Below are positions 9,103 to 19,114 of a stretch of DNA of 64,000 nt, in pieces. The notes beneath the pieces were generated by a model. That model saw only the letters and a list, made by a program, of their open reading frames with translations, was not told where the DNA came from and did no database searches. The stretch is from Mucilaginibacter robiniae (GTDB lineage Bacteria > Bacteroidota > Bacteroidia > Sphingobacteriales > Sphingobacteriaceae), in assembly GCF_012849215.1 (NCBI RefSeq), contig NZ_CP051682.1, positions 3,534,001 through 3,598,000 of the forward strand, in the 5' to 3' direction. The first letter of the stretch is position 1. Each line of letters opens with the position of its first letter. Both the position numbers and the translations under genes were made by a program.

Positions 9103-9723
9103 ATGCGCATTATACTTTTCATCTCTTGCTTATTCTTCAGCGTTTGGGCAAATGCACAACTTAAAACACAAGTAGTAGCCAAAACTTCAGTTCCTAAAAG
9201 CCTCCGCTATCAGGGTAAGCCTGTGCAGGCTGTGCAATATCAGGATCAAACAGGTACTTACTTTGCGCTTACTACACAGACAGGCGAACAGCCGCAAAAA
9301 GGTGAAGAAGGAGCCAGGCAAGCGCACTTGTATGCTTATGTATACCAACTGAATGACAATGCCGCGCCTACATTGTTATGGCAATTACACGATTTGGTGA
9401 GTGATTGTATATTAGACTTGGAAGCCGAATTTGTACCAAGCTCAATTACTGTTACTGACCTCGACAAAAATGGTAAAGCCGAAGTGTGGGTGGGCTACCG
9501 GCTGAGTTGCCGTGGTGATATAAGCCCGAGCGATTTAAAACTTATTATGCACGAGGGTACCACAAAGTATGCTATGAGAGGTGTTGGAAAGCTGAAAGTA
9601 AATAACGTTCTTCAGACTGATGGTGGTGAAATTAGTAGTAACGATTTTATTAAAGGACCTACTGCTTTTAAACCATACGCCCGTCAGCTATGGAATAAGT
9701 ATGCCCTGGAGGTCATTAAGTAA
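9103..9723 (+). CDS. Secreted M949_RS01915-like protein
   Basis: A 206-residue protein with a signal peptide (MRIILFISCLFFSVWANAQ). The central VTDLDKNGKAEVWVGYRL is a calcium-binding, FG-GAP-like loop. The following RGDISPSDLKLIMHEG and KYAMRG resemble the Bacteroidota family named after M949_RS01915, whose surface-polysaccharide label is weakly founded. It is the last gene of the plus operon. Its stop at 9721-9723 is 1 bp from the stop of the convergent WG-repeat gene, leaving no room for a separate terminator. Confidence 0.7.
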   Translation: MRIILFISCLFFSVWANAQLKTQVVAKTSVPKSLRYQGKPVQAVQYQDQTGTYFALTTQTGEQPQKGEEGARQAHLYAYVYQLNDNAAPTLLWQLHDLVSDCILDLEAEFVPSSITVTDLDKNGKAEVWVGYRLSCRGDISPSDLKLIMHEGTTKYAMRGVGKLKVNNVLQTDGGEISSNDFIKGPTAFKPYARQLWNKYALEVIK

Positions 9724-9724
9724 G

Positions 9725-10837
9725 TTACTTGCTGTTCTTCCAAAATACGGCAATTAATTTATACCCACTTGCGGTTCGCAAAAACGAATAATGTTCCTGG
9801 TAGTTAAGTTGTCGGTTCTGGTCGTAGTAAGGTACAATTACATCGAATGATGGATATTTATCCTCATTGGCTTCACCGCAGTCAGTATAGTAAGCGCTAA
9901 ATGCTTTTTGTGTATAGGTAAGGGGATTAAGCTGCTCGATGCCAATTTGCACATCTGCCCATTTAGCCTTTATGGGTTGTAGTTTTTTTAATAACAGATT
10001 GTGGTAAGTATTTTGAAATGCCTTTCGGGAATAAAATTTACGAAGCTGTTGCTTGAATAAGCCTTCTACACAAATAAGTTCAAAATTATCAATGGTTTTA
10101 CCAGATTTTGCATAGGTAAGGTAATGTTGGTAAAACCATTGCCTAAACTCTTTTTCATAATTGATGAAAGAATAGTAATGGCCATCTTTCGTTTTCAATG
10201 AAACCTGTAATGTGGTATCGGCAGGTTGATTACTGATTTGCAGGGAATACCAATTTAAGTTTTCCAAACGCGTTATATCCAGGCTATCGGCTATGATGTT
10301 GCCTTTGGAGTTAATGAGTGCCGTTATGCCATTCCAGTACCAGTGCTCGCAAGGATTGCTGCTATCATCTATAGGCTTCCCATCTGAGCATACACGCTTT
10401 CCATTATATAGCACTACTGCCAATCCATTATAAAAGGGTTCGGCATCGCTGAACATAGCTGGTATAACCACTTCGCCGTTCGCTCCAAAAAAGCCTACCT
10501 TATCCGTTTTAGGGTCGCGAAATCTGATTTTGCCTTCCTGTTCACAATCGTACGTCATGTCCCACACATACAGGCTATCATTACCAACCTGTTTACCGTT
10601 TTTTAGCAGATAGTATGATTTAAGCCTGTGCTCATCAGTAACGGCAATAATGTTCCTGAATACATTGGCTCTAAGCAAAGTATTGAAGCGGGGCGCAATT
10701 TTGATAGTGCCTTGCTTATCCTTAAAGCCGTATAAATCCTTTTTAACATTGTAATAACTAAACCAATTATCGGTTTGCTGTGCAAACGCAGGTTTTATAA
10801 CGGCTAATAAAAGGGCAATGACTAACAGGGATTTCAT
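9725..10837 (-). CDS. Secreted WG-repeat protein
   Basis: A 370-residue protein with a signal peptide (MKSLLVIALLLAVIKPAFA). WG-type repeats are visible: LYGFKDKQGTIKIAPRFN near residue 35, KVGFFGANGEVVIPAMF near residue 115 with EPFYNGLAVVLYNGK after it, and a weaker one with ALINSKGNIIADS. The second half is not repetitive and resembles a small alpha+beta domain. WG repeats generally act as binding scaffolds. It is the last gene of a three-gene minus operon and converges with the plus operon with a 1-bp gap. Confidence 0.85.
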   Translation of the reverse strand: MKSLLVIALLLAVIKPAFAQQTDNWFSYYNVKKDLYGFKDKQGTIKIAPRFNTLLRANVFRNIIAVTDEHRLKSYYLLKNGKQVGNDSLYVWDMTYDCEQEGKIRFRDPKTDKVGFFGANGEVVIPAMFSDAEPFYNGLAVVLYNGKRVCSDGKPIDDSSNPCEHWYWNGITALINSKGNIIADSLDITRLENLNWYSLQISNQPADTTLQVSLKTKDGHYYSFINYEKEFRQWFYQHYLTYAKSGKTIDNFELICVEGLFKQQLRKFYSRKAFQNTYHNLLLKKLQPIKAKWADVQIGIEQLNPLTYTQKAFSAYYTDCGEANEDKYPSFDVIVPYYDQNRQLNYQEHYSFLRTASGYKLIAVFWKNSK

Positions 10838-10886
10838 TTGAACAATATGCGGGATATTAGGTTGCGGTTGAAGTCACGAGGCCATG

Positions 10887-11300
10887 TTACCGTGTCATCT
10901 TTACTGAGCCGGTACACACATCACCTTCAGGTATTCCAGTCAGCCAAACTCTTAAAAATTTAATGCGTTCTCTGGTCAGCTTTTCCAGGTATATAGATTT
11001 ACACATCGGTTCAGCCGATCCGTTGTTGATGCCAGTATCAGGATATCGAGCCTCTAGCTCAGCATCGCGAAGCTGAATCCATAACCGTTGTGCGGCTTTA
11101 AACTTTTTAATAAACAGGGGCTGGGTAGCGTAACTCTTTAAAATTTTTTGATAAACGATGTTTAATTCGCGGTCAGCTTTAACAAAGCCATTACCGGCTT
11201 CCATGTTCATGGTGCCTTGCGATTGTGCATATGCCCACGAAGTCATTGTAATAAACGCAACGATAAACCAAGCGACTTTTATACAAAGTATTCTTTTCAT
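10887..11300 (-). CDS. LprI/DUF1311-type periplasmic protein
   Basis: A 137-residue protein with a signal peptide (MKRILCIKVAWFIVAFITM, cleavage near SWAYAQ). ADRELNIVYQKIL followed by FKAAQRLWIQLRDAELEARY is the characteristic DUF1311 helical pattern. Two cysteines (MCKSIY and GDVCTG) may form a disulfide. Some members of this family (LprI) inhibit lysozyme, others are uncharacterised. It lies between a novel secreted protein and the WG-repeat gene in a minus operon, with gaps of 16 and 49 bp. Confidence 0.85.
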   Translation of the reverse strand: MKRILCIKVAWFIVAFITMTSWAYAQSQGTMNMEAGNGFVKADRELNIVYQKILKSYATQPLFIKKFKAAQRLWIQLRDAELEARYPDTGINNGSAEPMCKSIYLEKLTRERIKFLRVWLTGIPEGDVCTGSVKMTR

Positions 11301-11316
11301 AATATCTAATTTTTAA

Positions 11317-12099
11317 TTATTGCCACCAAGGGCGTTTTTCTTCGGCTAAAGCTTTTTTGCCTTTCGGCTTACCAACATCAGCCAATTTAGCCTCCATATA
11401 GTTTTGCCATCCGTTGTTAATGTATTTTTCGTTCACATAAAATTCACCGGCACCTGTGTCTAAACTGCCGCTTTCTGGAATGCGAAAATCGCCCCAATTG
11501 CAGGTTTTGCTTGCACCGCCGTTGTAGGGCGTCCAGCGGGCCGCACATTCGTTATTACTAAAACCATCTTCCGGTATTAAAGTATCATATGCAAGCTGCC
11601 CTTGTTTGTTGATATACCAGTTTGTGGTCATTTTACCCTTGATTGTTCCGCTTCCGGCCTGCTTAGGGTTTTCTTTAATATTAACCTCGCATATCAAGTA
11701 CCCATATTTGTACTGCGGATATTCCATATTAGGCTCTAAGTTTCTTTTTGCCTGTTTAACCGTAATGGTGCCACTAAAGCTGCAAATATTGTTTTTTACT
11801 CTCGTTTTACCCTGCACATTATACTGGTAAGAGTTTTTGACATCTTTCACTACCGAAGTATAGTGAATATAAAACCGCTGATAATTACTTCCTATAAAAC
11901 CTATTGGCTCTGGAAAAGTATCCCATGGGTTCGGAGCTCCAACAAAGTATATTTTAGGTGCATGCCACAAACTGGCTAAATTAGCCTTGCCAGCCTGGGC
12001 GTAGTAATCGGCAACCTTGCCTTGCGCTGCGCAGGTGATGGCTTCAACAAGCATCATACAAAAAAGTACAATAGGCTTGCGCATTAACTTTTTAAACAT
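11317..12099 (-). CDS. Secreted protein, duplicated uncharacterised family (copy 2)
   Basis: The start is chosen at the ATG at 12099 (MFKKLMRKPIVLFCMMLVE, cleavage near CAAQG), giving 260 residues. An ATG at 12084 is an alternative, while the open frame to 12201 overlaps the divergent gene and lacks a signal. It is a paralogue of 7074-7865 (NLASLW, NYQRFYIHY, VQGKTRV, GTITVKQA, MTTNWYIN, ALAEEKRPWWQ at the end). Compared with copy 1 it has extra cysteines (NNICSF, NNECAA, KTCNWG). It is the first gene of the minus operon with LprI and the WG-repeat protein. Confidence 0.8.
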   Translation of the reverse strand: MFKKLMRKPIVLFCMMLVEAITCAAQGKVADYYAQAGKANLASLWHAPKIYFVGAPNPWDTFPEPIGFIGSNYQRFYIHYTSVVKDVKNSYQYNVQGKTRVKNNICSFSGTITVKQAKRNLEPNMEYPQYKYGYLICEVNIKENPKQAGSGTIKGKMTTNWYINKQGQLAYDTLIPEDGFSNNECAARWTPYNGGASKTCNWGDFRIPESGSLDTGAGEFYVNEKYINNGWQNYMEAKLADVGKPKGKKALAEEKRPWWQ

Positions 12100-12199
12100 G
12101 AACTCAGAAATATGATAAAACGTTGGGCGTAAGCTGACTGTAGGAAGTGATTTCATGGAAGTAAAACATGAAATGCACTTTAAATGTTTACCAGCCAGC

Positions 12200-13414
12200 A
12201 TGGCTAAAGATATTAAAGCAGTAAAGTGCCCGCATTGCGGCAGTATTTATAAAACCGAAACCAAGCCTGATTTTTACCGTTGCCAAAACTGCGGTACTGA
12301 ATATTTCATCGACAGCGATGATGTGCACATCTACCACCATCATCAACCGGTTACTCCTGTGCAAAGTTCGGCACAGGTTAATACTAAGCTACCGGTTTAT
12401 ATACTGATAGGTGCGGTTGCGTTTATTGTAATTATGTACTTTGTGACTATGCTTTTTCAACCTAAAAGCACGAGCACTTATAACAGCTATAGTACTTACA
12501 AAACGCCTCGTATGCAATACGGCAGCATAGTTTACATGAACACGGCTACGGGTAATCCGGTTTATTTACGAACCGGTGCAGATCAGATTGATAAGGGCAA
12601 CAACAAAACCGAAATGGAGATGCACGCACAATTCAATGACCCAATTACGGGTAAAGTAATTGTTGACCGGGTGATAGATGAGCCGTATAAAGGTGATTTG
12701 CGGTGTGATCTTAAAGTGAAAACTTACCAGACCGACCTGACGTACGCCATAGGTTGTAATGCAACCTTGTTCCAGCTGGATACCCGGAATAATAATTTGA
12801 TTGATATTACACAAAGTATTTTTAAGACATATCCGCAGTTAAGCTCGGGTGTAGCCAGGCTGGAGTTTGATTATGATAAAGACATGATCAATGTAATGAA
12901 TAACGAAGGCGACAGCTACCATTACTTTCCAACGCTTAAAAAATTGGTGAGCAGCAATGAGCAGGCCGAACAAATTTGGCAAAAGCAATTTGATCGGCAT
13001 TTTTTCGAATTTGGTTATTTAGGCAGTTATTTTGATGAACATAAATACAACCAGCTAATTGAAAACAAATACTCTCATGTAACCGGCCAGTTACTGCAAC
13101 GCAACTTAACTCCGGGTAGGAGGTACTTCGACCCGAAAATTATTTATCAAGATGGTAAAAATCTGTTGATTACTGTTCATACCACAGCGGCCTCTAATGC
13201 GCCAATAAGTATTCAAAATATTGATGTGACCACCGGGAAAATTAATTGGGTTTTACCACCCGACCAGTACTATCTATATTCTACAATCAAATGCAAACAA
13301 GGCTTTGCCATTGAATATCGTAAGGATGAAGAAGCAGATTATGCACACGGTGTACTGGTGATATCCAACACTGGCAAGCTCATTCATAATTATCAGTTGG
13401 GCCGTACGGAATAA
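12200..13414 (+). CDS. Zinc-ribbon membrane protein, partner of SPFH protein
   Basis: The start is taken at the ATG at 12200 (MAKDIKAVKCPHCGS), giving 404 residues. An ATG at 12155 in frame would add 15 residues. The N-terminal zinc ribbon has the CPHC-x(16)-CQNC pattern. A His-rich linker and one transmembrane helix follow (about residues 68-90, LPVYILIGAVAFIVIMYFV). The large C-terminal part is predicted beta-rich and extracytoplasmic. It is 31 bp upstream of the SPFH-SHOCT gene. In Bacillus subtilis the SPFH protein YdjI is encoded with the zinc-ribbon membrane protein YdjG, so this pair may be a distant analogue. Confidence 0.8.
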   Translation: MAKDIKAVKCPHCGSIYKTETKPDFYRCQNCGTEYFIDSDDVHIYHHHQPVTPVQSSAQVNTKLPVYILIGAVAFIVIMYFVTMLFQPKSTSTYNSYSTYKTPRMQYGSIVYMNTATGNPVYLRTGADQIDKGNNKTEMEMHAQFNDPITGKVIVDRVIDEPYKGDLRCDLKVKTYQTDLTYAIGCNATLFQLDTRNNNLIDITQSIFKTYPQLSSGVARLEFDYDKDMINVMNNEGDSYHYFPTLKKLVSSNEQAEQIWQKQFDRHFFEFGYLGSYFDEHKYNQLIENKYSHVTGQLLQRNLTPGRRYFDPKIIYQDGKNLLITVHTTAASNAPISIQNIDVTTGKINWVLPPDQYYLYSTIKCKQGFAIEYRKDEEADYAHGVLVISNTGKLIHNYQLGRTE

Positions 13415-13445
13415 TAATAAAATTAACAATCACAACTTAAACGCA

Positions 13446-14444
13446 ATGGGATTTACCGATTTTTTTAAAGGGCAATTTGCTACCATTATTGAATGGGCTA
13501 ACCAACCGCAACAGGTATTGTTCTTTAAGTTTCCTTTCAAGAGCGACGAAATCAAAAATGCCAGTAAGCTCATTATTGGGCCCGGGCAGGGATGCCTGCT
13601 GGTTTATGAAGGCAAGGTAACCGGTGTGTTGGATACAGAGGGTATTTATACCATGCAAACCGACAATGATCCTTTTATTACCTCGCTGTTTAAACTAATG
13701 CAAGGTTTTGAAAGCGAACATAAATTAAAAATTTATTTTTACCGTAAGTCCGAAGTGGTTAACCAAGGCTGGGGTACATCAAGCAGGGTGAAGTACGAGG
13801 AGCCGGTTTACCATTTTCCGGTTAGTTTAGGTGCTTACGGAAATTACTCCTTCAAACTCACCGATGCCAAATTGTTTTTGACAGAAATAGTAGGATTGTC
13901 AGACGTATATACTACTACGCAAGCGCAAATGCTCATACAATCGCGTATTGAACAACAGCTTACTGTTACATTGGCTACGGCGGCATACTCTATTTTACAA
14001 ATTGATAGTAAGTTGAATGAGTTGTCAGCGGAGCTGAAAGCACAGATGAACGTTAGTTTTACAGAACTGGGTTTTGAACTGACCAATATGCGCATACAGG
14101 GCGCATCATTCGATCAGCAAACGCAGCAACAGCTCAATCAAATTGCCAATGCCCAGGCTGGTAATCTCGCCGCCGAACAAGCTGGATTAAGCTACACCGA
14201 AATGGAAAAGCTTCAAGCCCTGCGCGATGCCGCTCGTAATGATAGCGGTATTGCCGGTGCTGGTTTGCAGTTCAATTTAGGGAACTACTTGGGTAATAGC
14301 GCTAATGAAACAAAATTATCATCTACCGAAACGCAGCCCGATGCGGTAGCTCAATTGCAAAAGCTTAAAATATTGCTTGATCAGGGCATACTAACTGTTG
14401 AAGAGTTTGAGGCGAAAAAGAGACAATGGCTCGATAAATTGTAA
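13446..14444 (+). CDS. SPFH-domain protein with C-terminal SHOCT motif
   Basis: A 332-residue soluble protein of the YdjI/'virion core' SPFH type (COG4260-like). It begins MGFTDFFKGQFATIIEW, then has an SPFH/band-7 body (GPGQGCLLVYEGKVTGVLDTEG and later ELSAELKAQMNVSFTELG). A Gln/Ala-rich helical stretch follows at about residues 215-255. The last 30 residues (LKILLDQGILTVEEFEAKK) are a SHOCT motif, typical of oligomerising membrane-associated proteins. There is no transmembrane segment, so membrane recruitment probably depends on a partner such as the preceding zinc-ribbon protein. It is the second of four plus-strand genes. Confidence 0.9.
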   Translation: MGFTDFFKGQFATIIEWANQPQQVLFFKFPFKSDEIKNASKLIIGPGQGCLLVYEGKVTGVLDTEGIYTMQTDNDPFITSLFKLMQGFESEHKLKIYFYRKSEVVNQGWGTSSRVKYEEPVYHFPVSLGAYGNYSFKLTDAKLFLTEIVGLSDVYTTTQAQMLIQSRIEQQLTVTLATAAYSILQIDSKLNELSAELKAQMNVSFTELGFELTNMRIQGASFDQQTQQQLNQIANAQAGNLAAEQAGLSYTEMEKLQALRDAARNDSGIAGAGLQFNLGNYLGNSANETKLSSTETQPDAVAQLQKLKILLDQGILTVEEFEAKKRQWLDKL

Positions 14445-14454
14445 ATTAAAACCG

Positions 14455-14889
14455 ATGAAAATACAGTATTTCTACATAGGCTTATTGCTTTGCCTGACAG
14501 GTTCAGTAATAGCTTCGTGTCAGCCGCAGAAAAAGAAAAACGCCCAGCAAATTAGCCAGGCAGCAGCGGTTAAACCAGCTGCATCGAACCCCGAAGATCA
14601 AGTTGTAGATTTGGTAATGAATCTGGAAGAAGTGAAACGTAAAAGCGCAGAAGTAGAAAAAGAAAGCAAAGGTAAAAGGCATCTATCAGGTTACGTAGAA
14701 ACAGCACCTACTATTAAAGATCCCAATTATTGGGTAAAAATAGCTGAAGATAATGGAGGTAGCTATGTAGCTTATTACACATTTGCTGTCGATAGCAAAA
14801 CGCATAGTATCCGTTATTATGACGTGGTTCAAGATAGCCTTGTCTCCCTAAGTCAATGGCGTCAATCAACACCGGCTGATGAGCGCTAG
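14455..14889 (+). CDS. Small lipoprotein of unknown function
   Basis: The start is placed at the ATG at 14455, 10 bp after the SPFH stop. This gives a type II signal (MKIQYFYIGLLLCLTGSVIASC) and 144 residues. The frame extends upstream into the SPFH gene, but that start would lack the signal. The mature protein has a charged helical segment (VMNLEEVKRKSAEVEKESKGK) and a C-terminal half with alternating Tyr and polar residues. The family is not recognised. It is the third gene of the SPFH operon. Confidence 0.7.
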   Translation: MKIQYFYIGLLLCLTGSVIASCQPQKKKNAQQISQAAAVKPAASNPEDQVVDLVMNLEEVKRKSAEVEKESKGKRHLSGYVETAPTIKDPNYWVKIAEDNGGSYVAYYTFAVDSKTHSIRYYDVVQDSLVSLSQWRQSTPADER

Positions 14890-14927
14890 TAAATACAGCT
14901 TAAACAAAAACTATTTAATATACATTA

Positions 14928-15359
14928 ATGAAAAAAAGTATCGGCTTATTACTGCTTTTGACACTGCCTTTTTTATCACCAGCACAAAACCTTACAGCAG
15001 ACAAGGGTGCTGCTATGCTTAAAACATTTTATACGGCTTACATATCTTTGTCGTCAGGAGAAAATGCTGATTTGGAAGCAAGTGAGGCAAAGCTGCTTGC
15101 CCTCAGGCGTAAGTATTGTACCCCAGCATGTTTAAAGCAATTTAAAATTTTGGTTGAAGAAACTGATGGTGATCCCATTATCAAAGCGCAGGATAGTTAC
15201 AAAGAGCTCATTAAGACTTTAGTAATTAAAAAGGATTTAAAGAAGCCTAATCGTTACGCGGTTTCTTACATTGACCTACAAGGCACGCATGAAAAGACCA
15301 CTATTTATGTGACATTAATTGAGCAAAGCGGTGCACTCAAAATCGCGCATCTGGAATAA
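14928..15359 (+). CDS. Secreted DUF3828-like protein
   Basis: A 143-residue protein with a signal peptide (MKKSIGLLLLLTLPFLSPAQ). FYTAYIS, a YCTPACLKQFK segment and DGDPIIKAQD match the general pattern of DUF3828 proteins, which are small periplasmic proteins of unknown role. Two cysteines three residues apart may form a disulfide. It closes the four-gene plus operon that starts with the zinc-ribbon gene. A weak GC-rich dyad (TAGCC/GGCTA) near 15402-15446 follows. Confidence 0.7.
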   Translation: MKKSIGLLLLLTLPFLSPAQNLTADKGAAMLKTFYTAYISLSSGENADLEASEAKLLALRRKYCTPACLKQFKILVEETDGDPIIKAQDSYKELIKTLVIKKDLKKPNRYAVSYIDLQGTHEKTTIYVTLIEQSGALKIAHLE

Positions 15360-15459
15360 GTTGTTAGCTTCTTTTTGAATCGAAATTTTTAAAAAAATAT
15401 TAGTAGCCAAGGCTGGGAGCTGATGCACCCGATGCCCCGGCTATCTGAAAAGCTTTTTA

Positions 15460-18123
15460 TTAGGGATTACTGCGTATAAAATCGCTTAGGTAACTACACT
15501 CATTTGCAGCTTTTCTATAGAATGCAGTGGTTTTATACTGCTGCATTTCTTTAAAATAACTGTTTTTCTTCAACTGCGTCATGTACTCTTTTGAGCGTTT
15601 GTCGTAAGTGTCATAGTTATCCATAAATGATGGTGCTTTGTGTTCTTTTTGTGCACACTTGGCGGCCATAAAAGTGCATCTGGCCTTCATTTCCGGATCA
15701 TTGCTTAACGCTCTCGCTTTTAAATAGTATTGCAACGCCCGTGAGGTATTAATATAATCTTCATCATAATAATAAAGCGGTTCCCGACCAAAATCATAAG
15801 CCGACCATTGGTAAGCAATAAGGCCCCATGAGTTGCCGTAGGTTGATGTATTGTATAAACCGTTTGCTATTAAATAATAAGTATCTGCTTTAGGCTCTGC
15901 TTTCAATTGACTTTCCAGCGCTGTCATTCTTTGGGCAAAGGTTAGTTTGGTGTAGCGCTTGCCGGCAAAGTATTTTGGATAATCATTAATCTCCACATAA
16001 AACGGATCACCCTGATAGCTTTCTCCATCGCTATAATAATCCTGTCCATTGTATGAGGCACTCATCAATTTTCCGTTTTTAACGTGTTGAAACGCTGTGG
16101 TTGCTTCCGGATAGTGGTGTTCGCGTAATGCAATTGTACCTAAAAGCTCATAAAGGTTATCCGCATCAACCCGCTTTAGCCCGTTGCTTAAAAAAGATAA
16201 GTAGCGTTCGGCAGGTCGTTTCATTTTCCAGCTAATAAGTTGATTTAAATGGTAGGAGTGAAGGTAATGAAACCAGAAATCAGGCATATTCCTGGTTATA
16301 TACCAATTATAATTTGCCACGTTACCATTGTTACTATTGAGCATGGCCAGCGCAGCTTTGGTAGTATCACCCTGACGCAGGTAGGCTGGCGCCAGCACAT
16401 AAGTGTAAAAGTTGCGCTCGGTAACAGCAAAATGGTTGTAGTTATTAGTATTTTCAGGATAAACATCAGCTTTGGCTTTTTCGCCGCTGGCTGCTTTGCC
16501 GCGCAACCACTGTAAAGAAGGGAGAAGTGAAGCTTCATCAACCGACTTAACCTGCTTCATGCGTTGAGCAGACAAAAGCAAGTTTAAAACTTGTTTCTGA
16601 TCAACCAGTTTACCAGTCAAGTTTTGCCCTTCTAATTTGTTTAAGGCAGATAATCCATCGTCGGGTCGGTTTTGCATAAAATATAAGTAAGCATCTGCTA
16701 ATGCACCTATCTGCGGTTCCGGATACTGCGCGTCACTGGTTAACTTGGTACAAAAGCTTCTTAATTTTTCAATATGATCGTTGTATTTGGTTTTAACGCT
16801 ATCGGGCATAGTCACGAAAAAGCTGCCTTGTGATAGTTTTTGTGTTTCAAACTCAGTTCTGGGGCGACTTACGGCAAACCATATCAAGCAAGCTGCACCA
16901 GCAAGTGCTAGAAAGCCTCCGGCTATTTTTATGCTTGATTGTTTAGACTGTTTTTTAAAAGAAATAATGAGTGTAACCAACCCTGCAAACAAAACAAATA
17001 TGCCGGTCCATAGAAGCCATTTTTTTGTGCTCGAATGTGGTTGAAGATAGGATTTTTTAATTGACTGTTCACTGTAAAACTGATCAGTGTTATTGCTTAG
17101 CGCCGGTGTTAAATAATATTCTTCAAGTTTATTAATCTCCCTCACCAGCAGAGTGCCAACCATTGGCGATGATGGCATATTATGATATACCTGCTCCAAG
17201 TTCTCAATTTCAATTTCCGGATTGGAAAAACCTTTAATTGCGTATAAGTGTGCTTTTTCTTCTGCTGTATGGGCAAGCTTTAATACTTCTGTAAATGGTG
17301 CGTTAATGTAGTAGTAATTTCGGTAAGCTTGTACCCGGCGTTCCGGATAATTGGCAAAAACTTTAGAGAACAAGTAAGCAGCTTGCGTAGTGTCGCCCAA
17401 TCGTCGCTTTTCACCGGCTTGGTAAGATAGAGCCCAACCTTTAATATGGCTTTTAGAAGGTAAGGCGGCAATATGCTGTTCGTAAATTATGTTTGCCTGT
17501 TCATAATACCGGCCGTAATGAAACAAACGCTGAGCCTGATAGTAATATCTGAGCTTAATAAAGCCATCGTTTACCGTACCTGCGGCTGCTAATGCTTTCT
17601 GGGCTGCGTTGGCTATTGCTGCTGTATCAATTGGTGCCGGATTCCATTCATCATAGGTTGTATTAGCCAGTGGTTCAACTTCAAGGGCAAATTTAAAGTA
17701 CTGCAACGCTGCCTGATGTGCCGGCTGCTTTAAACTTTGTAAAAAGGTATTGTTTGCTAACTTACCTGTCATAGGTAATTCCTGATCCAAATCTTGAATT
17801 AAATTCTGCTTGGCTGCACTATCCAACTCATACATTACTTTTTTTACATCGCCTGCTGTTACCGGTTGCTCTAAATAACGAGCCCACTCTGCCGAGTTGA
17901 TTGTGGCTTCGCTTTCCGGTTCATCGTCAGTATAAGTAAACCGGTAATCGGTAAAATAAAATGCGCCGAAATCTTTTTTGCTTTGAATGTTGGGGTTGAA
18001 AAACGAAGTATAATAATCATAAGGGTCGGGCTCGTCCGAACAGGCTACAAGAACGGCTATGCCTAGCAATAAGCAGCCTGTAATACTAACGAAATAAAGC
18101 AGCAGTTTTTTCCAAAGTTTCAT
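15460..18123 (-). CDS. Large helical-repeat membrane lipoprotein, uncharacterised
   Basis: An 887-residue protein. The N-terminus is hydrophobic and ends in a lipobox-like VLVAC before SDEPDPYDYYTSFF. Two transmembrane helices lie in the middle (about residues 365-390 and 395-415), splitting the protein into two soluble helical halves. Many paired helices with Ala/Leu/Tyr (for example AAQKALAAAGT, YLKARALSND, AKCAQKEH) suggest TPR-like repeats. The family is not known to me. Its start overlaps the upstream gene (18086-19114) by 38 bp, so the two are co-expressed and likely interact. Confidence 0.75.
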   Translation of the reverse strand: MKLWKKLLLYFVSITGCLLLGIAVLVACSDEPDPYDYYTSFFNPNIQSKKDFGAFYFTDYRFTYTDDEPESEATINSAEWARYLEQPVTAGDVKKVMYELDSAAKQNLIQDLDQELPMTGKLANNTFLQSLKQPAHQAALQYFKFALEVEPLANTTYDEWNPAPIDTAAIANAAQKALAAAGTVNDGFIKLRYYYQAQRLFHYGRYYEQANIIYEQHIAALPSKSHIKGWALSYQAGEKRRLGDTTQAAYLFSKVFANYPERRVQAYRNYYYINAPFTEVLKLAHTAEEKAHLYAIKGFSNPEIEIENLEQVYHNMPSSPMVGTLLVREINKLEEYYLTPALSNNTDQFYSEQSIKKSYLQPHSSTKKWLLWTGIFVLFAGLVTLIISFKKQSKQSSIKIAGGFLALAGAACLIWFAVSRPRTEFETQKLSQGSFFVTMPDSVKTKYNDHIEKLRSFCTKLTSDAQYPEPQIGALADAYLYFMQNRPDDGLSALNKLEGQNLTGKLVDQKQVLNLLLSAQRMKQVKSVDEASLLPSLQWLRGKAASGEKAKADVYPENTNNYNHFAVTERNFYTYVLAPAYLRQGDTTKAALAMLNSNNGNVANYNWYITRNMPDFWFHYLHSYHLNQLISWKMKRPAERYLSFLSNGLKRVDADNLYELLGTIALREHHYPEATTAFQHVKNGKLMSASYNGQDYYSDGESYQGDPFYVEINDYPKYFAGKRYTKLTFAQRMTALESQLKAEPKADTYYLIANGLYNTSTYGNSWGLIAYQWSAYDFGREPLYYYDEDYINTSRALQYYLKARALSNDPEMKARCTFMAAKCAQKEHKAPSFMDNYDTYDKRSKEYMTQLKKNSYFKEMQQYKTTAFYRKAANECSYLSDFIRSNP

Positions 18124-19114
18124 AGTTGTAGTGTTTAAGTGTAGGTTCGTTAAGGTGAAAGTAGATGATGTTTACAGTGTCTGATGCTAAGTGTTTTTCA
18201 ATATATTTTGCGGCTTCGCTGAGTTTATCGGCAGGGATAGTTTCCCACCTGATTTCGTCGCCATGTATCAAACCTAATTCGGGCAAATCTTTTTGTAAAA
18301 TATACAAGTTGTTGTTGGTTAGTTTGAAGGTAAGGCTATCGGTAAAGCTTTGCTGGTTTAACCGTTTAGCTATTCCGGCATATTGTTTTTGCCTGAATAC
18401 CACTGCCCAACTAAAAAGCGGCAGGCCAATATCAACTGGCAGCTGGTAATTGTTTAAATTATCGCCCACATATTTTTCCAGTTCACTCTGGTTCAAAATA
18501 GAGTTTTGAGAGCCATATTGGCGCAGGTTGCCCATATTATAACACATCAACATTACCCGGTTAACCGGCGGCACACCATTGCTTTTTTGATTTTTGAGCT
18601 GATGCAGGCGCAGCGTAGCCGATAGCTGCTTGTTTTTAAAGTTTGTGTTAGCTTTAATACGCTTCAATAGAAAAAAATAATTATCGCGTGTGGTTCGCGT
18701 CCAGTCGCAATCAATTTGTAACTCGTTAAAAGATGTTTTTCCTGCCTGTACCATTTTACCATTTACATAATAAACAATTTTTGCAGCTAGGTTATCCAGT
18801 TGTTGTTGTGTTTGATTTTTGAGTATATCATTTACAATAAATACCACCGGAATAACTTGTACCGAATCTGCGAACGTGGCCTTAAACGTAACGGGCGATA
18901 CAGGTACCGGACCATTGTCACCATTGTCTACATCCATCATCCGCAGGTATAGCTTATGGCTATGCAGCTTGTTAAAGTACTGCTTTTCTGTGGAATTAAG
19001 GACGTAAACTGTTTTCCAATAATAGAATGCGGTGTTAACAACCCGTGCTTTATGGCAGGAGGATAGTAACAGTAGAACAATGACAGTGATATAACAAGTA
19101 ATTAGTTTATTCAT
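18086..19114 (-). CDS. Lipoprotein with TIM-barrel-like (DUF3142-like) features
   Basis: A 342-residue protein with a type II signal (MNKLITCYITVIVLLLLSSC). FYYWKTVY, ELQIDCDWTRTTRDNYFFLL and RVMLMCYNMGNL alternate strand and helix as in a beta/alpha barrel, and the acidic residues of ELQIDCDW lie where DUF3142-type putative glycosidases carry theirs. The similarity is from memory and weak. The stop lies 38 bp inside the next gene (15460-18123), indicating tight coupling. It may bind or process an envelope glycan, but this is only a guess. Confidence 0.7.
   Translation of the reverse strand: MNKLITCYITVIVLLLLSSCHKARVVNTAFYYWKTVYVLNSTEKQYFNKLHSHKLYLRMMDVDNGDNGPVPVSPVTFKATFADSVQVIPVVFIVNDILKNQTQQQLDNLAAKIVYYVNGKMVQAGKTSFNELQIDCDWTRTTRDNYFFLLKRIKANTNFKNKQLSATLRLHQLKNQKSNGVPPVNRVMLMCYNMGNLRQYGSQNSILNQSELEKYVGDNLNNYQLPVDIGLPLFSWAVVFRQKQYAGIAKRLNQQSFTDSLTFKLTNNNLYILQKDLPELGLIHGDEIRWETIPADKLSEAAKYIEKHLASDTVNIIYFHLNEPTLKHYNYETLEKTAALFR

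Follow-up and report, generated by a model that had tools for sequence, protein, structure and literature searches.

The ribbon-propeller gene and the SPFH-SHOCT gene described here form a real and strongly conserved pair. It lies in a 64,000-nt stretch of Mucilaginibacter robiniae DNA (the window, i.e., the whole stretch that was analysed), and its features are collected in the table below. The best explanation, to which we assign a probability of roughly 0.5, is that the two genes make up an envelope module, in which an SPFH protein working without PspA would be held at the membrane by a tether protein whose propeller may act as a sensor. A preliminary description of this DNA had recognised a CPHC/CQNC zinc ribbon joined to one transmembrane helix and a large outer domain, and, 31 bp further on, an SPFH protein whose C-terminus carries a SHOCT motif. 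This domain content was borne out by computation: protein 1 carries both cysteine pairs, one hydrophobic segment and a C-terminal domain, and the gap between the two genes is 31 nt.

Table. Features of the ribbon-propeller and SPFH gene pair in the window.
Feature	Coordinates	Strand	Basis or remark
Zinc ribbon, transmembrane helix and predicted beta-propeller protein (protein 1), 404 aa	12200..13414	+	ORF and start; proposed membrane tether/sensor
Four-cysteine zinc ribbon, residues 10-31	12227..12292	+	CPHC (10-13), CQNC (28-31)
Low-confidence linker, residues 41-64	12320..12391	+	pLDDT <50; His/Asn-rich in the family
Transmembrane helix, residues 66-85	12395..12454	+	Hydropathy; helix 66-85 in the model
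C-terminal domain, probable beta-propeller, residues 105-404	12512..13411	+	All-beta model, PDB fold matches, weak profile hits
SPFH-SHOCT protein (protein 2), 332 aa, without TM helix	13446..14444	+	PF13421 and SHOCT matches
SPFH domain PF13421, residues 27-234	13524..14147	+	125.9 bits vs. cut-off 24, E 2.1e-36
SHOCT motif, residues 302-327	14349..14426	+	C-terminal; 30.9 bits vs. cut-off 27
Small lipoprotein-like gene	14455..14889	+	Occasional neighbour, not core; homologs in L067 (57%) and L104 (55%), both Mucilaginibacter

The start codon of protein 1 was set at 12200 and not at 12155, because its relatives open with MAKxIKAIKCP. The four ribbon cysteines are invariant in 90 aligned homologs (alignment A4), an invariance that is partly by construction, since nine rows, either ribbon-gene fragments or sequences lacking the motif or the start, had been excluded beforehand. 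The ribbon was matched by TIGR02098 (22.8 bits vs. a cut-off of 20.9), and all Pfam ribbon models scored below their own cut-offs on protein 1. Its weak-score likeness to ribosomal, RNA-polymerase and TFIIB-type ribbons would suit a different function, in which the ribbon binds nucleic acid or polymerase and the propeller signals to transcription, with the SPFH protein as a scaffold. However, these ribbon scores are generic and no regulator gene recurs as a constant neighbour across the mapped loci; we regard a role in transcription as very doubtful. Across the 90 proteins, an 18-residue stretch of the linker behind the ribbon contains 9.4% His and 17.4% Asn, the outer domain 1.3% and 5.7%. 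Hydrophobic residues alternate in the linker of many homologs, and at least two His are present in the 18-residue stretch in 44 of the 90. Hydropathy indicated a single hydrophobic segment in every one of the 90 aligned homologs. The charge rule gave a weak signal for topology, with the excess of K+R before the helix in 42 proteins, after it in 26 and equal on both sides in 22 (n=90), and the propeller side of protein 1 would be the periplasmic one.

The C-terminal domain of protein 1, for which no covering Pfam family was found, is probably a beta-propeller, as judged from structure prediction. The AlphaFold2 model calculated on the 90 aligned proteins reached a mean pLDDT of 86.0 and a pTM of 0.70, and its residues 105-404 contain strands and short helices only. 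A Foldseek search returned 153 PDB matches at E ≤0.001 with chains that we take to be propellers at the top, and the TM-scores were low, 0.17-0.31 by query length among the matches listed. VIA-align gave Z up to 10.9, with an rmsd of 7.0 over 270 residues; since numerous unrelated propellers fell within 1-2 units, this comparison indicates the fold and not the family. Sequence profiles gave weak matches that were one repeat long, the best at E 3.8e-4 to a designed propeller, with BamB at E 0.0073. No PQQ repeat family reached the Pfam cut-off in protein 1, and the NCBIfam PA2928 family scored 19.8 bits vs. a cut-off of 70; the likeness to BamB, other PQQ-type propellers and PA2928 is weak and at the repeat level. 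BamB, unlike protein 1, is not known to have a ribbon or a membrane helix.

The highest 19-residue hydropathy mean of the SPFH protein is just 0.94 (threshold 1.6), thus a membrane helix is not expected. In alignment A5, which comprises the window protein and its relatives from 47 of the 80 named loci described below, 47 of the 48 proteins stay under the same threshold, L070 being marginal. The model of the SPFH protein was of moderate quality (pLDDT 72.6), and its fold matches included stomatin, prohibitin, flotillin and the HflK/C-FtsH complex; its profile found nothing among PDB sequences at E 0.01, and PHROGs gave SHOCT-region and weak matches only. The prohibitin and HflK/C-FtsH matches, although they stand beside stomatin and flotillin, together with the weak profile likeness of the propeller to BamB among other PQQ-type propellers, are consistent with another function: the SPFH oligomer could act as HflK/C and prohibitins act for FtsH, i.e., as a chaperone or as an adaptor of a protease, with the ribbon-propeller protein as a receptor for damaged envelope proteins. 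HflK/C and prohibitin have a membrane helix of their own. The window SPFH protein, unlike them, has none, and we consider an adaptor function unlikely. Stomatin, flotillin and QmcA-YbbJ (SPFH-NfeD) complexes resemble the window pair in the SPFH fold and, according to a Hinderhofer-type operon survey (PMC2636767), in pairing the SPFH gene with that of a membrane partner. In SPFH-NfeD complexes the partner is NfeD and the SPFH protein has its own N-terminal helix, whereas in the window the partner is the ribbon-propeller protein and the SPFH protein is without a helix. As for SHOCT, PF13421 is described as its commonest companion, and one test of SHOCT as an oligomerisation domain gave no support (PMC3581485).

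The adjacency and co-occurrence of the two genes were assessed in 351 genomes of the host's family, where the ribbon-propeller gene was called at E ≤1e-20 and the SPFH gene at E ≤1e-60. The ribbon gene was found in 60 genomes, the SPFH gene in 56 and both in 55, and in all 55 genomes with both genes they were adjacent and on one strand. The ribbon gene lay upstream in 53 of the 55 (match gaps of 4-178 nt) and downstream in the other two (284 and 292 nt). Fisher's test for co-occurrence gave p 3e-57, a value that overstates independence since the family genomes are related. A first search with a single protein had undercounted the ribbon gene (6 of 121 family genomes); the count of 60/351 was obtained with a 90-row profile. 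In G100, the only genome with the SPFH gene alone, the SPFH protein is more distant (E 1e-105) and its gene has other ribbon genes as neighbours; the five genomes with the ribbon gene alone contain an intact copy in one case (G555) and fragments in four. Ribbon genes more than 6 kb from any SPFH gene amounted to 12 of 73, of which seven are in genomes that have a linked pair too, one is that of G555 and four are fragments.

Decayed copies of the ribbon gene were observed at L207, L208, L209 and L210, where an intact SPFH gene is absent. Behind the ribbon fragment lie the C-terminal 21 residues of the SPFH protein at L208 and a two-helix gene at L207; such remnants behind the fragments read as a deletion inside a once-complete operon.

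A second sample was obtained by searching an SPFH alignment against 84,980 species genomes and taking the best 80 of 120 relatives as named loci. This sample overlaps the family sample, and it is biased because the query derived from linked genes. Eleven of these best 80 of 120 loci are from Gammaproteobacteria (Gilliamella, Frischella, Zophobihabitans, Intestinirhabdus and others), the remainder from Bacteroidota. A same-strand ribbon-propeller gene was present near the SPFH gene in 80/80 of them; in 73 of the best 80 of 120 it lay no more than 600 nt upstream, six had it on the downstream side only, and in one it was 2.3 kb downstream. The preliminary description had named linkage in other genomes as a point on which its proposal could fall, and both samples speak for linkage (55/55 genomes, and 80/80 loci as the best 80 of 120). 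Moreover, the distance matrices of the ribbon and SPFH proteins were correlated (r 0.83, 67 pairs), with 0 of 2000 permutations as high. A flanking gene in common was found in 63/1953 locus pairs below 60% SPFH identity, 20/208 at 60-80% and 27/50 above 80%; the low sharing below 60% identity shows that it is the gene pair that is conserved and not the region. A third gene, encoding a protein of about 79 aa (73-90) with two helices, was found in 59 of the best 80 of 120 loci, in one of them 2.5 kb off. Three of these proteins were scanned and had no Pfam match above cut-off, and the window has no two-helix gene behind its SPFH gene. Its clade is likewise without this usual third gene, which speaks against the tether reading.

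Several loci contain two to four ribbon-propeller genes, either in tandem or on both sides of a single SPFH gene (four in L103, three in L144, and also L072, L077 and L104), and short and long forms of the protein occur in L077 and L104. In alignment A1, row L052 was entered with a cut N-terminus. A promoter and terminator scan gave site numbers not above those of shuffled sequences.

The patchy distribution (60/351 family genomes), the changing flanks and the decayed copies are also features that a conflict or defence module, e.g., an anti-phage or toxin-immunity membrane device, might display. Against a defence function, neither the SPFH protein nor the two-helix protein was matched by PADLOC, nor were the two genes downstream, and protein 1 had only weak matches in the ribbon region (E 5.7e-4 and weaker). 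The viral contigs scanned for the ribbon protein yielded 11 pattern matches and zero relatives, and the identifiable neighbours in 31 loci mostly resemble unrelated housekeeping families. Such a function seems to us quite improbable. A match to the SPFH protein was seen in 21 plasmid records, always below 60% identity, and by identity none is a member of the subfamily.

The pair had also been likened to YdjG-YdjI of Bacillus subtilis, with the membrane partner recruiting the SPFH scaffold. The general likeness holds: pspA-ydjGHI likewise encodes a soluble PF13421-type SPFH protein together with a zinc-ribbon membrane protein (PMC8581546; PMC11237479). The details differ, in PspA, TPM, the number of ribbons, the outer domain and the SPFH C-terminus. 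PMC11237479 describes YdjG as having an NTF2-like domain besides two ribbons, and gives the band-7 protein a C-terminal ribbon, whereas the window proteins have one ribbon, a predicted propeller as the outer domain and SHOCT at the SPFH C-terminus, respectively. A YdjH-type TPM gene is part of ydjGHI; none lies between the ribbon and SPFH genes of the window, and PF04536 (TPM) was not found in the ten window genes scanned (9103-19114). The host genome has two TPM domains elsewhere, at 0.76 Mb. TPM-type proteins were seen in 6 of the best 80 of 120 loci; in one case the match was weak and lay at a distance of 4.7 kb. The 286-aa neighbours in L131, L132 and L142 had been considered as TPM proteins and were rejected, being NadC-type and aldolase proteins.

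The idea of YdjG as the recruiter is also only partly upheld. According to PMC8581546, ydjG and ydjH are both required for the membrane localisation and foci of YdjI, but the two-hybrid contacts reported for YdjI are PspA and YdjH, not YdjG. Since the broad pairing is the same as in B. subtilis, the window genes might constitute a phage-shock module working with a PspA encoded elsewhere, and among the six ribbon-positive genomes of the 121-genome draw two (G064 and G102) do have PspA, in neither case near the pair. However, PspA (PF04012) had no match in the host genome, in a search whose control recovered 9 of 14 known genomes, and it was present in only 5 of the 121 family genomes, 4 of them above cut-off. 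We find a PspA-dependent function most improbable. The window pair is best read, by analogy, as a probable PspA-free variant of the theme of a PF13421-type SPFH protein with a zinc-ribbon membrane partner, as in B. subtilis YdjGHI.

The same theme recurs with other partners. Of 395 genomes drawn evenly from the phylum, 27 had a close SPFH protein (cut at E <1e-120), the window's own among them. In the flanks read in the other 26 the propeller-type partner was missing, and this result counts against a strict pairing of SPFH with the propeller. A 9-row ribbon profile, used in a phylum draw before the 90-row one and too insensitive as a count, matched 4 of 395 genomes, the only strong match being the window's own. 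The SPFH proteins of the 26, in those compared, are about 40-43% identical to the window's, and 25 of the 26 genomes are from one other Bacteroidota family (f18). The protein encoded next to SPFH in f18 begins with a Gly-rich segment and has two ribbon motifs, Tim44 domains (PF04280, E 5.7e-16 and 2.9e-17) and a hydrophobic stretch visible by eye, and no propeller. Such Tim44-like double-ribbon genes follow a related SPFH gene at L147 (2515-4011) and L154 (3-1490, minus strand). These pairs are like the window in having an SPFH protein of about 40% identity and a same-strand ribbon protein; they differ in that the f18 partner is of Tim44 type with two ribbons, whereas the window partner is a predicted propeller protein with one. 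A same-strand ORF with a ribbon pattern follows SPFH in 23 of 25 f18 loci, one miss being a contig end. More broadly, a same-strand ORF with a CxxC pair was found within 1.5 kb in 47 of 51 PF13421-type loci vs. 191 of 2000 random pieces; the 51 include 25 from one related family and five window-type pairs, and exclude L040-L046 (weak PF13421) and L033 (the window). On the basis of the f18 partners and these 47/51 loci, the general rule looks like an SPFH protein together with a ribbon protein whose second domain is exchangeable, the propeller being one form.

What we infer for the pair, i.e., topology, physical contact or recruitment, oligomerisation, sensing and an effect on the membrane, can be put together as follows. 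Protein 1 would reside in the inner membrane by its one helix, with the zinc ribbon in the cytoplasm and the beta-propeller in the periplasm. Protein 2 would be a soluble cytoplasmic SPFH-SHOCT protein that oligomerises. Through its ribbon, and perhaps also the His/Asn-rich linker, protein 1 may tether protein 2 to the membrane; the propeller might sense an envelope ligand or damage, and sensing could in turn alter SPFH assembly and local membrane organisation. The tether is suggested because the SPFH protein is without a helix and its partner has one, because the two genes are found side by side and seem to decay jointly, and because YdjI foci in B. subtilis need both YdjG and YdjH (PMC8581546). 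A more specific version, which we put forward tentatively, is a widespread PspA-independent envelope surveillance in Bacteroidota and insect-gut Gammaproteobacteria, where a periplasmic propeller would sense ligand or damage and, via the helix and the ribbon, assemble or release an SPFH-SHOCT scaffold at the inner leaflet, usually with the two-helix third protein. If this surveillance occurs, the general membrane adaptors of PF13421 SPFH proteins would be ribbon proteins in which the outer domain (propeller, NTF2-like, Tim44-like) can be exchanged. The module, if correctly understood, would offer a testable rule for how a soluble SPFH protein reaches the membrane, namely by way of a zinc-ribbon adaptor whose outer sensor can be swapped, here free of PspA. 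It would also give a likely partner and a first assay to a gene pair that occurs in Bacteroidota as well as Gammaproteobacteria and for which Pfam has no matching family, either for the outer domain or for the usual third gene. No description of the propeller partner was found in the parts of the open-licence literature available to us, and one may be in print elsewhere.

The preliminary description had added two further exported proteins, a lipoprotein and a DUF3828-like one, as a periplasmic arm in a four-gene order. Of the best 80 of 120 loci, 2 had a homolog of the lipoprotein and 0 had one of the second exported gene (14928-15359), hence the four-gene module was rejected. Nor was there a DUF3828 match for the second protein, with Pfam searched at E up to 1.

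Other genes around the pair were also noted. On the minus strand further downstream, the product of 15460-18123 is large, has two hydrophobic segments and matches TPR weakly, and 18086-19114 is a lipoprotein-like gene upstream of it and overlapping it; neither has a family above cut-off. Divergent from the pair, 11317 to about 12099 (minus strand) encodes a probably exported protein with no Pfam match and with homologs at L067, L082 and L211 (two copies). At L211 the similarity reaches the start of the ribbon gene, thus the start of the 11317-12099 gene is uncertain. The LprI-type protein (PF07007; 10887-11300, minus strand) recurs in the neighbourhood of the pair in L069 and L211. Four of the best 80 of 120 loci, L067, L069, L104 and L107, all of them from Mucilaginibacter or Pedobacter, have a homolog (52-63% identity) of the WG-repeat protein (9725-10837, minus strand) in the vicinity of the pair.
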